A DNA stretch of 64,000 nucleotides from Alkalicaulis satelles. Lineage in GTDB: Bacteria > Pseudomonadota > Alphaproteobacteria > Caulobacterales > Maricaulaceae. The stretch is taken from assembly GCF_008630495.1 (NCBI RefSeq), contig NZ_VWOJ01000001.1, positions 868,001 to 932,000 of the forward strand. Reading direction: 5' to 3'. Within the stretch, counting starts at the first letter, position 1; each line of letters begins with the position of its first letter. Below, piece by piece: positions 2,223 through 37,224 of this stretch. The notes beneath the pieces were generated by a model, which was given only the letters and a program-made list of their open reading frames with translations, was not told where the DNA came from and ran no database searches. A program made the position numbers and the translations under genes.

Positions 2223-4289
2223 ATGCGCGTTTTTTCATGCCTCTTCACAGAGCATAATCTGTGGTTTGTGCTTCTGGCCGCCGTCATGTGCGTGCTGGGC
2301 GCCACGATCACCATCAGGCTTTACCGGCTGGTCAGCGGCGCCCGGGGCGCGGCCCGGCTGGGCTGGGCCTTCCTGGCCGCGGTGTGCGCAGGCGCAGCGG
2401 TATGGACCACCCATTTCATCGCCATGCTGGGCTATGAGCCCGGCGTGCCGGTGCAGCTCGACCCCGGGCTGACCATTGCCTCGGGCCTGATCGCCATCTT
2501 CGGCAGCGGCCTGGCCTTCCTGATCGCCGGCAGCTTCTCCGGCCGTGTCTTTCACGCACTGGGCGGTGCGGTGTTCGGCCTGACGGTGGCCGCCATGCAT
2601 TTCACAGGCATGTTCGCCTACCGCGTGGACGGAATCGTCAGCTGGGACATGGCCTATATCGCCGCCGCCATCGCCCTGTCCGCCGGTTTTGGCGCCGCTG
2701 CGCTCTATGTGGCGCCCAACTGGAAGGGCGGCTGGCGCTGCATGATCCCGTCGCTGTTGATGGTGGCGGGCATTGTCTCGCTGCACTTCACCGGCATGGC
2801 CGCCTTCATTGTGACGCCGCTGGAGGGCGTCGAGACCGGGGCGGACAGCCCGGCTTTCACCGCCATGGCCATCGCCGTGGCGATCGCGGGCTTTCTCATT
2901 CTGGGCACGGGCGTGGCCACCTATTTCATCGAACAGCGCATGCGCGAGGCGTCCGAGGACAAGCTGCGCCACATGGCCCTGCACGATCCCCTGACCGGCC
3001 TGCCCAACCGCACCAGCTTCAATGCCCGCCTGGACGCCCGCCTGGACGGGCCGCTGGCCCATGAAACGGCGATCATCGCCATCGATCTCAACCGCTTCAA
3101 GGAAATCAATGACAGCTGGGGCCATGCGGCGGGCGACCAGGTGCTGACAGTTCTGGCCGAGCGCCTGCGCAAGTTCGACGGCGCGCGCCATTTCGCCGCC
3201 CGGCTGGGCGGGGACGAGTTCTGCATGATCCTCAAGACCGCCGACGTTCAAGAGCTCGAGACTCTGGTTCAGGCGCTGGAGAACGAGTTCAACCGGCCTG
3301 TCCAGTGCGGTGATCTGGAGGCGGCGGCGGGCGCCAGCATCGGCGTGGCCATCTTCCCGCGCGACGGCGACACCCGCGATGCGCTGGCGCGAAACGCCGA
3401 TCTGGCCATGTACAAGGCCAAGGCCGATCCGCTGACCAATATCTGCTTCTACGATCCGGCGCTGGGCGAAGCCGTGCGCGAAAGCCGCGCGCTGGCCAGC
3501 GATCTGCGTCAGGCCATCGAGTCAGATCAGCTGACCTTGCACTACCAGGTGCAGACCTCCATCGGGTCCGGGGAGATACGCGGCTATGAGGCGCTGTTGC
3601 GCTGGACCCATCCTGAACGGGGCAATATCCCCCCCTCCCGGTTCATCCCGCTGGCCGAGGCCAATGGCCTGATCCTGCAACTGGGCGACTGGGTGCTGCG
3701 CCGCGCCTGTCTGGATGCGGCCGCCTGGCCGAGCCACCTGAAGGTCGCGGTCAATCTGTCAGCCATCCAGCTGACCCATATCGCCCTGCCCCAGCAGATC
3801 CATCAGGTGCTCATCGAGACCGGGCTGCCGCCTGCGCGCCTGGAGATCGAACTGACCGAGACCGCGCTGATCAAGGACAAGGCCCAGTCGCTCCATATCA
3901 TGCGCCAGATCAAGGCGCTGGGCGTATCCATCGCGCTGGATGATTTCGGCACGGGCTATTCCTCGCTGGACACGCTGCGCACCTTCCCGTTCGACAAGAT
4001 CAAGCTGGACAAGTCCTTCACCGACGAGCTGAAAACCGACCCGCGCTCGCTGGCGGTGGTGCGCGCCGTGCTGACGCTGGCCCGGAGCCTGGGCATTCCG
4101 GTGCTGGCCGAAGGCATCGAGACGGTTGAACAGCTCGAGCTGCTGCGCATCGAGCATTGCGATGAAGGCCAGGGCTATCTGCTGGGCCGGCCTGCGCCCA
4201 AAGACGTGGTCAGCCAGCTGGGACAGCGCATCGAGGTCGGAGGCGCGCCGCAGCCGGCTCAAGCGCCGGCGCCGGCGAAACGCGCCTAG
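2223..4289 (+). CDS. Cyclic-di-GMP signalling protein, MHYT-GGDEF-EAL
   Basis: A 688-residue membrane-bound diguanylate cyclase/phosphodiesterase. The N-terminal ~245 residues form the seven-helix MHYT sensor, with its repeated motifs WTTHFIAML, AAMHFTGMF and VSLHFTGMA; this domain is proposed to bind copper and sense a diatomic gas. A GGDEF domain follows, with intact GGDEF at residues 329-333, then an EAL domain with GYEALLRW (EAL 456-458) and the later DDFGTGYSSL. Both catalytic signatures are intact, so it may make and degrade c-di-GMP. I see no RxxD inhibitory site five residues before GGDEF. The start at 2223 puts the first helix at the N terminus. Its stop codon overlaps that of amn on the other strand. 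Confidence 0.95.
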   Translation: MRVFSCLFTEHNLWFVLLAAVMCVLGATITIRLYRLVSGARGAARLGWAFLAAVCAGAAVWTTHFIAMLGYEPGVPVQLDPGLTIASGLIAIFGSGLAFLIAGSFSGRVFHALGGAVFGLTVAAMHFTGMFAYRVDGIVSWDMAYIAAAIALSAGFGAAALYVAPNWKGGWRCMIPSLLMVAGIVSLHFTGMAAFIVTPLEGVETGADSPAFTAMAIAVAIAGFLILGTGVATYFIEQRMREASEDKLRHMALHDPLTGLPNRTSFNARLDARLDGPLAHETAIIAIDLNRFKEINDSWGHAAGDQVLTVLAERLRKFDGARHFAARLGGDEFCMILKTADVQELETLVQALENEFNRPVQCGDLEAAAGASIGVAIFPRDGDTRDALARNADLAMYKAKADPLTNICFYDPALGEAVRESRALASDLRQAIESDQLTLHYQVQTSIGSGEIRGYEALLRWTHPERGNIPPSRFIPLAEANGLILQLGDWVLRRACLDAAAWPSHLKVAVNLSAIQLTHIALPQQIHQVLIETGLPPARLEIELTETALIKDKAQSLHIMRQIKALGVSIALDDFGTGYSSLDTLRTFPFDKIKLDKSFTDELKTDPRSLAVVRAVLTLARSLGIPVLAEGIETVEQLELLRIEHCDEGQGYLLGRPAPKDVVSQLGQRIEVGGAPQPAQAPAPAKRA

Positions 4290-5797
4290 CGGAAGGGCGG
4301 CTCGTCGAAGCTTCTCAGCTTGCGCGAATGCAGGGCGGCCGAGCCCTCGCGCTTGAGAATCTCAATCGCCTCGATGCCTGCGGCCAGGTGCTCTGACACC
4401 GAGCGCTGGTAGAAGCGGTTGGCCGCCCCGGGCAGTTTCAGCTCGCCATGCAGCGGCTTGTCGGAGACGCACAAAAGCGTGCCGTAGGGCACGCGCAGGC
4501 GAAAGCCGTTGGCCGCAATGGTGGCGCTTTCCATGTCCACCGCGATGGAGCGCGACTGGTTGATGCGCCGCGCTTCCTGATAATAGCGCAGCTCCCAGTT
4601 CCGGTCGGCATAGGTCACCACCGTGCCGGTGCGCAGGCGGCGCTTGAGCGCCTCGCCCTTGTCGCCGCTGACCGACTCCACCGCCTTGTGCAGCGCCATC
4701 TGGATCTCGGCGATGGGCGGGATGGGAATCTCCACCGGCAGATCGCGGTCCAGCACGCTGTCATAGCGCAAGTATGCGTGGGCCAGCACGTAATCGCCCA
4801 GGCGCTGGGAATGACGCAGCCCCCCGCAATGGCCGACCATGAGCCAGCATTCGGGCCGCAGCACCGCCAGGTGATCGGTGATGTTCTTGGCGTTCGACGG
4901 CCCCACCCCGATATTGACCAGGGTGATGCCCCGCCCGTTCGGCGCCATCAGGTGATAGGCCGGCATCTGGAAGCGCTGCCAGTGCGCGCCCATGACCTGG
5001 CCCAGCGCGTCGGGGGTATCGGCGTCCACGCGCACCAGGCCCGCCGCCGACAGGGCGGTGTAGTCATTATCCTCCTGGAGCTGGCGCACGGCCCATTCCA
5101 CGAAGGCGTCCACATAGCGGTGATAGTTGGTGAACAAGATGAAGTCCTGCACGTCCTCGAACGGCGTGCCGGTATAGTGGCGCAGGCGCTGCAGCGAATA
5201 ATCGGTGCGCGCCGCATCAAACAGCAGAAGCGGGCGCGGACGGCCCGGCTTCGAGGGGCGCTCGCCATTGGGCAGGGCGTCGTCGATATTGGCCAGATCG
5301 GCATAGGGGAAATGACGCACCAGCTCGGCCGGGCTCACCTCGTCCAGATCGAGATCACTGCCGTCCAGCACATAGGAGAACGGAATCTCCTGGGTGGACA
5401 GCCCGGTCTCGATCACCACCGGATACTCGTCGGCCAGAAGCTGGATCTGTTCGGTCAGATAGCGCCGGAACAGCGCAGGATGGGTGATGGTGTTGGCGTA
5501 GACGCCCGCTTCGGAGAACTTGCCGAAGGCCCGGCTGACCGGCGGGACCGGCCCTTCGGGCTGATAGGTGATGCGCAGTTCGGGATAGGCGAAGGCGCCC
5601 CCGGCCCGGGCCGCCGCCGCGGGCGGGGTTCCGTCCTTGAGATAGGAGCGGAGCGCATCGCGCAGATGGTTGACCGAGGCGTCATACAGCGCGCACAGGC
5701 GGTCAACGGCGCAAGCCGCGTCCGGCGCCGCTTCAAAACTCGCCAGAACCGCGTCCGGCGCGACCGCCTTGGCCAGCGACAAGGGCTCAGTCCTCAC
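4286..5797 (-). CDS. amn: AMP nucleosidase
   Basis: Hydrolyses AMP to adenine and ribose 5-phosphate, regulating the cytoplasmic adenylate pool. The 503-residue length and two-part architecture fit the family: an N-terminal AMP nucleosidase domain (to about residue 180, with GKFSEAGVYANTITHP) and a C-terminal nucleoside phosphorylase-like domain with LMVGHCGGLRHSQRLGDYVL and the ribose-binding stretch VDMESATIAANG. The GTG start at 5797 lies inside the end of the upstream small gene (11-base overlap), so translation is probably coupled. The 3' end overlaps the c-di-GMP gene by 4 bases in a palindromic CTAG. Confidence 0.95.
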   Translation of the reverse strand: MRTEPLSLAKAVAPDAVLASFEAAPDAACAVDRLCALYDASVNHLRDALRSYLKDGTPPAAAARAGGAFAYPELRITYQPEGPVPPVSRAFGKFSEAGVYANTITHPALFRRYLTEQIQLLADEYPVVIETGLSTQEIPFSYVLDGSDLDLDEVSPAELVRHFPYADLANIDDALPNGERPSKPGRPRPLLLFDAARTDYSLQRLRHYTGTPFEDVQDFILFTNYHRYVDAFVEWAVRQLQEDNDYTALSAAGLVRVDADTPDALGQVMGAHWQRFQMPAYHLMAPNGRGITLVNIGVGPSNAKNITDHLAVLRPECWLMVGHCGGLRHSQRLGDYVLAHAYLRYDSVLDRDLPVEIPIPPIAEIQMALHKAVESVSGDKGEALKRRLRTGTVVTYADRNWELRYYQEARRINQSRSIAVDMESATIAANGFRLRVPYGTLLCVSDKPLHGELKLPGAANRFYQRSVSEHLAAGIEAIEILKREGSAALHSRKLRSFDEPPFR

Positions 5798-34864: not shown

Positions 34865-34941
<77 letters not shown>

Positions 34942-35054: not shown

Positions 35055-35130
35055 TGGTGGGCGGTGACGGGATCGAACCGCCGACCCTCTCGGTGTAAAC
35101 GAGATGCTCTGCCAGCTGAGCTAACCGCCC
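35055..35130 (-). tRNA. tRNA-Val (TAC)
   Basis: A 76-base gene including an encoded CCA. The acceptor stem GGGCGGT/ACCGCCC pairs perfectly; the anticodon loop TTTACAC gives anticodon TAC between CTCGT/ACGAG-type stem arms; the T loop is TTCGATC. It lies upstream of tRNA-Asp on the same strand, 113 bases away, and just downstream of pheA. Confidence 0.98.
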
Positions 35131-35143
35131 TTGCCTTACTCCT

Positions 35144-36310
35144 TTAGCCTGCCCGGCTGGCTGGCTTCAACCGGTCTGATCCGTAAGAGCCCAGCCGGCG
35201 CACGGTGCTGGCGTGGCGGGCCAGGTGGTCGAGCGCGCGCGAGACGGCGGCGTCGCTCTCATGGCCTTCCAGATCGATGAAGAAAAGCTGCTCCCACGGC
35301 GCGCCGGGCACGGGCCGGCTTTCCAGCTTGGTCAGGCTCACCCCTTCGGTGCGGAAGCCCTCCAGCGCGCTGATCAGCGAGCCGGCCTCGTCGCTGGTGA
35401 TCACCACCAGCGAGGTCTTGCACGGCAGGAGCGGCGAGGCCGGCGCCGGATCAAGCGCCAGAGAGACAAAGCGGGTCTCGTTGCCGGCGAAGTCGGAGAT
35501 ATTGGGCTCGATCACATTGAGCCCGAACAGGCGCGCAGCGTCCGGGCTGCCGACGGCGGCTGCCGACGGGCCCTCGTCCAGCGCCCGCTCCAGCGCGCGG
35601 GTGGTGGAGGAGACCGGAACCTTCTTGAGGTCATGGCGCGCGTTGAGCCAGCGCTGGGCCTGGCGCAGCGCCTGGGGGTGGCCATAGACCGTGCGCACCA
35701 CGCCCACATCGCTGGATTTGCCCATCAGGGCGTGAACGATGCGCTGGTGATGCTCGCCGGCGATTTTCAGCCGGGTCTCGCGCAACAGGTCATAGACCTC
35801 CACGATGCCGCCCGTGGCGGTGTTCTCGATGGGCAGGAAGCCGTATTCGGCCTCGCCCGCCTCCACCGCCGCAAACACGGCCGCATAGTCGCGTTTGATC
35901 ACCGGCGCCACGCCTGAATAGCGCCCGGAATAATGGCTGTAGACCCCGAAATGGGAATAGCTGCCCGGCCCGCCCAGATAGGCCACGCGCGCCTCGGTCA
36001 GCAGCCGGTCGCCCGCGCGCGCATCCAGCCCGGCGCGCTGGCGGCGCAGGGAATCATCAATGATCGCCTGGAACAGCGTCTCCACGAAGCTGGCGTCCAG
36101 ACCCAGCTCGGTCCCCGCCGCCACGGCGCGCGTGATCACATCCTGCTCGCGCTCCACATCACGCACCGGGGTCTGCTCGCCCGCCTTGAGGGCGCCCAGC
36201 GCCTCGCCCAGACGCCGGCGCTCGGCGAGCAGCTTGATCAGCTCTCCATCAGCCCGGTCGATGGCCGCGCGCAGGGCGGCGCGTTCGTTTCGGGTCTCGG
36301 GCGGCGTCAT
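35144..36310 (-). CDS. pheA: Chorismate mutase / prephenate dehydratase (P-protein)
   Basis: A bifunctional enzyme converting chorismate through prephenate to phenylpyruvate for phenylalanine synthesis. The 388 residues comprise a chorismate mutase AroQ domain (about 1-95), a prephenate dehydratase domain (VAYLGGPGSYSHFGVYSHY, and SSTTRALERA) and a C-terminal ACT domain with GSLISALEGF and LTKLESRP, the phenylalanine-binding motif for feedback inhibition. The start at 36310 has AAGGAGA 7 bases upstream; longer frames run into the attenuator. Expression is probably controlled by the attenuator at 36325-36452. Confidence 0.96.
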   Translation of the reverse strand: MTPPETRNERAALRAAIDRADGELIKLLAERRRLGEALGALKAGEQTPVRDVEREQDVITRAVAAGTELGLDASFVETLFQAIIDDSLRRQRAGLDARAGDRLLTEARVAYLGGPGSYSHFGVYSHYSGRYSGVAPVIKRDYAAVFAAVEAGEAEYGFLPIENTATGGIVEVYDLLRETRLKIAGEHHQRIVHALMGKSSDVGVVRTVYGHPQALRQAQRWLNARHDLKKVPVSSTTRALERALDEGPSAAAVGSPDAARLFGLNVIEPNISDFAGNETRFVSLALDPAPASPLLPCKTSLVVITSDEAGSLISALEGFRTEGVSLTKLESRPVPGAPWEQLFFIDLEGHESDAAVSRALDHLARHASTVRRLGSYGSDRLKPASRAG

Positions 36311-36324
36311 GGGCGGTCTCCTTG

Positions 36325-36397
36325 AAAAGCAAAACCCCCGCCGGGCGGGCGGGGGCGGACTGGTCTTCATCTGTGCGCAGACGAGCTCAGCCAGTCC
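36325..36397 (-). promoter_or_regulatory. pheA transcription attenuator (terminator and antiterminator)
   Basis: On the minus strand an 8-bp perfect stem (36335-36342 with 36348-36355) is followed by TTTT, GC and TTTT (36325-36334), ending 15 bases before the pheA start. Directly ahead of it, CCAGTCC (36357-36363) can pair with GGACTGG at 36391-36397, inside the leader peptide gene just before its stop. G residues next to the latter arm can also pair with the terminator's C-rich arm, so the two structures exclude each other. Confidence 0.85.
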
Positions 36398-36452
36398 CCC
36401 CGGGACCGCCAAAATAGCTGAAAAGCCGATAGAAAGCCGTGCGCGTCATCAT
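36387..36452 (-). CDS. pheL: pheA leader peptide, Phe/Tyr-rich
   Basis: A 21-codon frame with AFYRLFSYF at residues 6-14: three Phe and two Tyr codons in eight consecutive positions (7-14), then GGPGGTG and TGA. It lies upstream of the pheA terminator and its stop follows the antiterminator arm. When charged tRNA-Phe is scarce the ribosome should stall on these codons, free the arm at 36391-36397 and prevent termination. No ribosome-binding site is seen before ATG 36452; an in-frame ATG at 36464 is an alternative. A possible -35 (TTGACC, 36484-36489) and weak -10 (36460-36465) would start the RNA at about 36453, so translation may be leaderless. Confidence 0.82.
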   Translation of the reverse strand: MMTRTAFYRLFSYFGGPGGTG

Positions 36453-36576
36453 GCGCTGCAGCATGGCGCAGGCGCGATTGTCCGGTCAAGCGCCAATTCG
36501 GACCGGCGTTGACACGCGCGCACAGGCGCCCTCCGAATCCCTGGCGGGCGCTGACGCCCTGCCGGGAGACCTGCTC

Positions 36577-37224
36577 ATGACCTTGCGCCTTCTCGCCCTG
36601 CCGCTGATCGCTGTGCTCGCCGCCTGCCAGAACCCTGCTGACGAAGGCGGCGCCGGCGTGACCGAAGAGACCCTGCCCAAAGCCGTGATCGAAACGGATA
36701 TGGGCGAGATCCGCATCGTGCTGCACGCCGGCAAGGCGCCGGTGAGCGTGGCCAATTTCCTGGCCCATGTGGAGGCGGGCACGTTTGAAGGCGGGTCGTT
36801 CTACCGGGTGGTGCGCGATGACAATGACCGGCCCGATATCGAGAACCCGATGAATCTCATCCAGGGCGGCTGGGGGTTTGAGGGCCTGCCCGAAGCGCAA
36901 GGCATCGCCCATGAGAGCACGGACATGACCGGCCTGTCCCATGTGCGCGGCGCGGTTTCCATGGGGCGCTATGATGTGGGCACGGCGACCACCGAGTTCT
37001 TCATCATGCTCAATGACACGCCCGGGCTCGACGCCGGCCCGGACGGGCGCAATCCCGGCGACGAGGCGGGCTATGCCGTGTTCGGTCAGGTGGTGGAGGG
37101 GATCGAGATCGCCGAGGCGATCATGAATGGCGCCGCCGGCGGCCATGAGGGCGCGCCCGAAGGCTTCGCCCATCAATTCCTGACAGAGCCTGTGACCATC
37201 CGTTCGATCCGGCGCGTGCGCTAG
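36577..37224 (+). CDS. Cyclophilin-type peptidyl-prolyl isomerase, lipoprotein
   Basis: A 215-residue cyclophilin with a lipoprotein signal (MTLRLLALPLIAVLAAC, Cys17), so likely anchored in the periplasm where it assists folding of exported proteins. Domain marks: VIETDMGEIRIVLHAGKAPVSV, GGSFYRVVRDD, AVSMGRYDVGTATTEFFIML and GYAVFGQVVEG. The classical FHRxI is FYRVV, as in several bacterial forms. GGGAGA stands 8 bases before the ATG. The stop overlaps the converging transferase gene in CTAG. Confidence 0.92.
   Translation: MTLRLLALPLIAVLAACQNPADEGGAGVTEETLPKAVIETDMGEIRIVLHAGKAPVSVANFLAHVEAGTFEGGSFYRVVRDDNDRPDIENPMNLIQGGWGFEGLPEAQGIAHESTDMTGLSHVRGAVSMGRYDVGTATTEFFIMLNDTPGLDAGPDGRNPGDEAGYAVFGQVVEGIEIAEAIMNGAAGGHEGAPEGFAHQFLTEPVTIRSIRRVR

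Follow-up and report, generated by a model that had tools for sequence, protein, structure and literature searches.

The pheA gene of Alkalicaulis satelles is preceded by a short reading frame with aromatic codons and by an intrinsic terminator, which raises the question of how the gene is controlled, and why the leader contains tyrosine as well as phenylalanine codons. We analysed the surrounding 64,000 nucleotides, referred to here as the window. Judged from sequence, pheA is very probably under the control of a ribosome-mediated transcription attenuator that responds to the supply of Phe as well as Tyr. An attenuator had been proposed in an earlier sequence-only reading, and that interpretation is supported.

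Organization of the pheA leader region

The pheA gene is located on the minus strand (35144–36310, ATG at 36310) and encodes a bifunctional chorismate mutase/prephenate dehydratase of 388 amino acids. The protein matches the NCBIfam model of this bifunctional enzyme, PRK10622.1, over the whole length with 287 bits, the curated cut-off being 577. Several Oceanicaulis records are among its named relatives, with up to 94% identity. Directly downstream of pheA, the minus strand encodes tRNA-Asp (gtc, 34865–34941) and tRNA-Val (tac, 35055–35130), neither of which is a Phe or Tyr tRNA.

All parts of the leader region are also on the minus strand. The leader peptide open reading frame (36387–36452) starts with the ATG at 36452, contains 21 codons (MMTRTAFYRLFSYFGGPGGTG), and ends with the stop codon at 36389–36387. 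The translated leader contains the control codons Phe7, Tyr8, Phe11, Tyr13, and Phe14 (36411–36434), in agreement with the 21-codon frame and Phe/Tyr run of the sequence-only reading. In relatives, alignment gaps in the frame are codon-sized, the aromatic codons are conserved, and so is the start at 36452. A leader start at 36464, as previously placed, was not upheld: this is an upstream in-frame ATG that would give a 25-codon version of the leader, and it overlaps the probable −10 box.

The final leader codons harbour a putative protector (1:2) hairpin, CGGTCCC-GGG-GGGACTG (36392–36408), which appears in the fold with a ribosome stalled at Phe11 and in a 23-row consensus. The 5′ arm of the antiterminator (region 2; 36391–36401) consists of a G-run followed by ACTGG and was assigned from arm pairing tests. 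The 3′ arm (region 3; 36351–36363), CCAGTCC-G-CCCCC, was identified by arm pairing and folding and overlaps the 5′ arm of the terminator. Within these arms, GGACTGG (36397–36391) is complementary to CCAGTCC (36363–36357) over 7 bp, and the leader stop codon is positioned 1 nt beyond the 7-bp arm, just past it as had been claimed.

The intrinsic terminator hairpin (3:4; 36334–36356), identified by a terminator scan and by the coevolution of its arms, has eight perfect pairs, one G-T pair, and a loop of five nucleotides. Its arm CCCCCGCC (36355–36348) pairs perfectly with GGCGGGGG (36342–36335) in a GC stem of 8 bp. The stem is followed by the split T-tract TTTT-GC-TTTT (36325–36334), with T-runs at 36334–36331 and 36328–36325, and by the pheA Shine-Dalgarno sequence AAGGAG (36318–36323), both read from the sequence. 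Positions 36000–37000 contain four terminator-like sites on both strands together, two of which are versions of the pheA-leader terminator, compared to a mean of 0.4 in shuffled sequences. The perfect stem, split T-runs, and ribosome-binding site are all present as previously described, and the attenuator parts in general are real and can be read directly on the minus strand.

Upstream of the leader, a probable promoter comprises the −35 box TTGACC (36484–36489) and the probable −10 box CATGCT (36460–36465), which is 18 nt past the −35 box and 7 nt ahead of the leader ATG. A strict sigma-70 consensus scan of positions 36000–37000 found no promoter, so the case for a probable promoter rests on conservation. 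The first T of TTGAC is 35–37 nt ahead of an ATG in all 46 leaders detected in the family (see below), two of which have a second ATG at 38 and 39 nt. The motif CANNNT ends 6–7 nt upstream of this ATG in 45 of the 46, the exception being L042. A Shine-Dalgarno-like motif precedes the leader ATG at three of the 46 loci and pheA at 35. Because of the fixed promoter-ATG spacing and the scarcity of Shine-Dalgarno motifs, the first transcribed nucleotide is likely to be the A of the AUG, and the leader peptide is probably leaderless. The earlier suggestion of a leaderless peptide expressed from a weak promoter is strengthened by this constant spacing, seen in all 46 leaders.

The pheA leader of Escherichia coli has a 5′ untranslated region and a ribosome-binding site, unlike the apparently leaderless family leader. 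The trpL leader of Sinorhizobium meliloti (rnTrpL/peTrpL), which is also alphaproteobacterial, is described in PMC7298713 as encoding a leaderless leader peptide, with a transcript that starts with the leader ATG; it differs in its Trp codons and in preceding trpE(G). PMC3616915 gives 171 leaderless transcription start sites in the same species. If the proposed start is true, the pheA leader would join trpL as an alphaproteobacterial example of a probably leaderless leader peptide.

Conservation of the leader and pairing of its arms

A search of 137 genomes of the family identified full-length bifunctional PheA matches in 51. The leader plan was sought with a detector that combines TTGAC, a distance of 35–37 nt, an ATG, 15–30 codons with at least three Phe or Tyr, and a hairpin with a T-run; these criteria were fixed after the family had been inspected. 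The full plan is present upstream of 46 of the 51 bifunctional pheA genes, and the leader frame, the loss of which in relatives had been named as a ground for refutation, is therefore kept. The detector found the plan in none of 18 sequences upstream of monofunctional prephenate dehydratase genes from other genera of the family (19 were taken, one of which was too short) and in none of 2,040 dinucleotide shuffles. In a tiled scan of the 64-kb window, the pheA leader was the single place found. The leader open reading frame, aromatic codons, and promoter spacing are kept down to PheA proteins that are 42% identical to that of the window.

One of the five loci missed by the detector, L037, is situated on a contig that ends inside the leader. 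The bifunctional pheA loci L022, L039, L040, and L041 are without the leader and terminator plan; L039–L041 form one clade, whereas the nearest neighbours of L022 in its group, L023 and L024, retain the plan. Left out before counting were G087, G029, and G030, the PheA matches of which are partial or weak; L063, with a contig end 44 nt upstream of the match; and the named records L003–L010, some from species already counted, seven of which contain the leader, L008 being the exception. In the closest relative, pheA (L012, G089:C106:7713-8876) contains one internal TAG, which may be an assembly error or a sign of decay.

A covariance model was built from 23 family leaders and searched within the family only. 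At an E-value of 0.01, it matched 42 of the 137 genomes, with one match each, all directly before pheA; the matches comprise the 23 training rows and 19 further genomes. The model misses five of the 46 detector leaders (G003, G004, G064, G069, and G072) and adds the truncated leader of G025. In the genome of the window, itself a training row, the pheA leader is the only strong match, the next having an E-value of 0.2, and the model identified no convincing second copy of the element.

A hairpin and then a T-run end all 46 leaders. In every one of the 46, pairing between the leader's own terminator arms exceeds the mean obtained when arms are swapped between clades, and none of 5,000 permutations was as good, which indicates that the arms coevolve. 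The antiterminator G-run is located 8–16 nt before the stop codon in 45 of the 46 leaders. Together with the bases after it, which often extend into the stop codon, it pairs with the C-rich arm of the terminator and the bases flanking that arm on the 5′ side. Permutations as good as the real antiterminator pairing numbered 0 of 5,000 in three of four arm settings and 60 in the fourth for 23 representatives, and 0 of 5,000 in all four settings for the 17 outside genus g13. Inside g13 (19 leaders), no antiterminator coevolution was detected, as 3,538–4,412 of 5,000 permutations were as good, and in most single g13 leaders the pairing of the antiterminator does not exceed that of 200 arm shuffles. 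With the short arm, own pairing is above the mean of other-clade swaps in just 23 of the 46 leaders; in the window, three of 200 arm shuffles pair equally well. Of the two helices whose conservation the sequence-only reading had named as a check, the terminator is conserved throughout, and the antiterminator is supported between clades but not inside g13.

RNAalifold applied to the 23-row alignment returned only seven pairs, one of which has a two-sided change. We read this as the sliding of the antiterminator register between genera, and the partner-swap test, which fails within g13, was therefore used instead. The protector pairing in the consensus links columns 48–50 with 55–57. Many leaders have a CCC up to 14 nt before the G-run, although it is missing from g6 except for L031, and in numerous relatives this C-run allows a protector hairpin to fold.

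Folding of the window's leader shows how the arms may compete. With a ribosome at Tyr13 or Phe14, the 7-bp antiterminator pair and the terminator stem coexist without overlap. With a stall at Phe7 or Tyr8, the extension of the antiterminator by the G-run creates a conflict with the terminator, and with a stall at Phe11 the protector hairpin forms in place of the antiterminator. In these folds, exclusion of the terminator is predicted to need the pairing of the G-run at 36401–36396 with CCCCC at 36355–36351. The 7-bp pair named in the sequence-only reading is complementary as described, but alone it would leave the terminator intact, and the adjoining G-run has to be added to it.

In a simple masking model, every one of the 46 leaders has a Phe or Tyr stall that pairs the terminator 5′ arm before the 3′ arm exists, and with the ribosome at the stop codon the 5′ arm is captured in one of the 46. 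A shuffled antiterminator 5′ segment still captures the C-rich arm, at 0.62 compared to 0.73 for the real one; real segments are above their own shuffled mean in 33 of the 46 leaders, and in the window 11 of 30 shuffles are as good. The masking model is weak evidence because shuffled segments do nearly as well.

In full-length folds, the terminator is more stable in most leaders, also when a stalled ribosome is included, and therefore antitermination must be kinetic. This thermodynamic dominance would also suit a constitutive partial terminator next to a decaying open reading frame, without any regulation. We consider such a terminator very unlikely, as the aromatic codons, reading frame, and promoter spacing persist at 42% PheA identity and the antiterminator arms coevolve between clades.

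The proposed course of attenuation is as follows. RNA polymerase would begin with the A of the leader AUG or a nucleotide adjacent to it, and the leader open reading frame would be translated as leaderless mRNA. When Phe-tRNA and Tyr-tRNA are charged and ample, the ribosome would reach the stop codon and mask the G-run/ACTGG arm, which would leave the C-rich arm free to form the terminator, so that transcription would stop before pheA. When Phe or Tyr is short, the ribosome would pause at the Phe/Tyr codons and mask the C-run otherwise able to pair with the G-run. The freed G-run arm could then capture the C-rich arm before the terminator 3′ arm is made, and pheA would be transcribed.

Tyrosine codons and the aromatic pathway

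Phe codons are present in all 46 leaders and Tyr codons in 45, with 143 Phe, 96 Tyr, and no Trp codons in total and three to eight aromatic codons per leader. Phe makes up 14.6% and Tyr 9.8% of leader residues, Trp is absent, and Leu, Ile, and Val account for 2–3% each (Leu 2.9%, Ile 2.3%). As Leu, Ile, and Val are scarce, the bias is towards aromatic codons and not U-rich codons generally. The mixed Phe/Tyr content, which had been noticed in the single leader of the window, is a family-wide trait and has a metabolic rationale.

Phe and Tyr replace each other at like positions, a pattern also expected if selection acted on the chemistry of the peptide, with the nascent aromatic peptide arresting the ribosome so that a peptide and not codons is sensed. 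The number and position of the aromatic residues vary among leaders, and the remaining peptide is highly variable, which makes peptide arrest very improbable in our view.

The rationale for reading tyrosine was sought in the enzymes around PheA. A profile search for TyrA (PF02153) found no match in the genome of the window. Among the 15 genomes of its genus, only G088 and G089 have PF02153 matches, and these are weak, lie within proteins of the 3-hydroxyisobutyrate-dehydrogenase type, and were rejected as TyrA. More generally, weak PF02153 matches (E-values of 6e-6 to 1e-3) were not counted as TyrA, including that of G089, which scores 26.6 bits relative to a cut-off of 26.5. All six of these weak matches that are the best match of a leader-bearing genome (G088, G089, G008, G081, G083, and G136) fall in proteins that other dehydrogenase or oxidoreductase families of Pfam fit better. 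Phenylalanine hydroxylase (PF00351) is encoded by each of the 15 genomes, and that of the window's genome passes the TIGR01267 cut-off. Because this genome has no TyrA match and contains the hydroxylase, which can convert Phe to Tyr, PheA probably supplies Phe and Tyr alike in this lineage, and the leader would for this reason read tyrosine. PMC7311316 proposes tyrosine synthesis via phenylalanine hydroxylase for Dyella and Legionella, bacteria without TyrA.

Two side observations concern these enzymes. The hydroxylase match (L090:391-1518, G000:C2) is broken near position 153 into two stretches of the profile, a pattern seen in the listed matches of the genus and different in other genera, which suggests an inserted segment. 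The same genome encodes, outside the window, a second prephenate-dehydratase-like open reading frame of about 182 amino acids (L002, G000:C2:486947-487462), which matches nearly the whole PF00800 profile with 78 bits, scores 66.5 bits, below the cut-off, with the NCBIfam prephenate dehydratase model, and is followed by a frame of 408 amino acids that appears by eye to encode an aminotransferase. Weak matches like L002 are found in further genomes of the genus.

Across the family, leaders from genomes with no TyrA found all contain Tyr codons, and the picture is mixed where TyrA is present. No TyrA was found in the genomes of 29 of the 46 leaders (G074–G076 being 90–94% and G028 69% complete), and all 29 leaders hold Tyr codons. 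The other 17 leaders come from genomes with TyrA-like genes; 16 of them, all from g13, have Tyr codons, and that of G004 does not. The share of Tyr is 0.44 without TyrA and 0.36 with it across the 46 leaders (p = 0.057, kinship ignored), from which we claim no association. G004 has TyrA, a Tyr-free leader, and no hydroxylase match, and with an estimated completeness of 100% it is the only highly complete genome of the 46 without such a match. G068 and G080, which are 65 and 69% complete, also have no hydroxylase match, yet their leaders contain Tyr codons. G003, from the same genus as G004, has no TyrA match, a hydroxylase, and a leader with three Tyr and two Phe codons.

The nearest PheA proteins outside the family provide a comparison. 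Their leaders were chosen as the open reading frame of highest Phe/Tyr density, blind to which of the two amino acids contributed. Upstream of the 19 outside pheA genes closest to the family, 16 leaders were identified, with 89 Phe and no Tyr codons in total; all 19 genomes have TyrA and 11 also have the hydroxylase. Any leaders identified in these 11 are Tyr-free too, which counts against the metabolic rationale.

In a simpler Phe attenuator, Phe codons alone would matter, and Tyr codons would be neutral or an aid to spacing. The Phe-only codons of the outside pheL-type leaders and the Tyr codons retained by g13 genomes with TyrA would fit such a reading. The presence of Tyr in 45 of 46 leaders, at 96 codons relative to 143 for Phe, argues against it, as do the leaders L013–L016 from close relatives of the window, each of which has two Tyr codons and only one Phe codon, and the fact that the sole Tyr-free leader belongs to a near-complete genome without hydroxylase. 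A response to Phe alone is thus possible, but we regard it as rather doubtful.

The Tyr codons of the TyrA-bearing g13 genomes could alternatively be accounted for if PheA were the sole chorismate mutase, so that Phe and Tyr both depended on its prephenate; the one g13 TyrA examined (L088, 240 amino acids) is without a mutase domain. However, 49 of the 51 genomes with bifunctional PheA, including that of the window, have another mutase match, located in an open reading frame of its own that is mostly short. The two genomes without it are G080 (69% complete) and G004, and the leader of the latter is Tyr-free, the opposite of what would be predicted. Dependence on a single mutase is therefore disfavoured and highly improbable.

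If tyrosine is indeed read because it is made from Phe, the control codons of an attenuator would follow the wiring of the pathway, and leader peptides could tell which amino acids a gene serves.

Origin of pheA and related attenuators

Among 384 other sampled Alphaproteobacteria, no PheA match reached 1e-60. A search of 398 genomes from the order placed matches of this strength in the family of the window only. The nearest matches from outside reach 1e-79. In a midpoint-rooted tree with long branches flagged, the 19 outside PheA proteins join the 51 of the family with a support of 100/94, apart from eight monofunctional enzymes of the family and ten other proteins. The outside genomes are probably Gammaproteobacteria, as judged from their matches to Rfam model RF01859 (Phe_leader) and from their pheL-like leaders. 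Transfer of the bifunctional pheA, its direction left aside, is plausible from the tree.

The family leader resembles the gammaproteobacterial pheL attenuator (RF01859) in several respects. Both precede bifunctional pheA genes, from neighbouring clades of the tree, and share a short leader in which aromatic codons follow a run-spacer-run pattern, helices that are predicted to compete, and a GC-rich terminator. Many outside leaders have GCCTCCC in the terminator stem, and many g13 leaders have GGCCTCCCC. They differ in control codons, which are Phe only in the outside leaders and Phe and Tyr in those of the family. The family element appears to be a Phe/Tyr-bivalent, probably leaderless form of the known pheL attenuator. 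We see about an even chance that this leaderless two-amino-acid attenuator combines a pheL-like switch with a gamma-type bifunctional pheA, perhaps acquired by transfer, and that loss of TyrA and reliance on the hydroxylase retuned its codons from Phe only to Phe and Tyr.

RF01859, with a cut-off of 55 bits, has no match in the window. Of eight family loci searched with it, only L044 matches, at a sub-threshold 28.6 bits, and of four outside controls, L101 (122 bits), L106 (120 bits), and L105 (84 bits) exceed the cut-off, L114 scoring 31 bits. Other, weak Rfam matches at the window, to anti-hemB (20.5 bits) and four more families, were rejected as far below their cut-offs. If true, the pheA leader is an amino-acid attenuator unrecognised by the Rfam models searched.

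Vitreschak et al. reportedly dealt with proteobacterial attenuators in 2004. We found no report of this pheA attenuator in searches of the open-access literature of PMC. A pheA motif is listed as a candidate in Actinobacteria in PMC2864571. The actinobacterial motif is alike in name, and no such family is among the Rfam matches of the window. The leaders thrL and ilvL of E. coli each read several amino acids, and their operons serve several end products. The pheA leader of the window would be alike in reading more than one amino acid and differs from both in the combination of Phe and Tyr codons before pheA.
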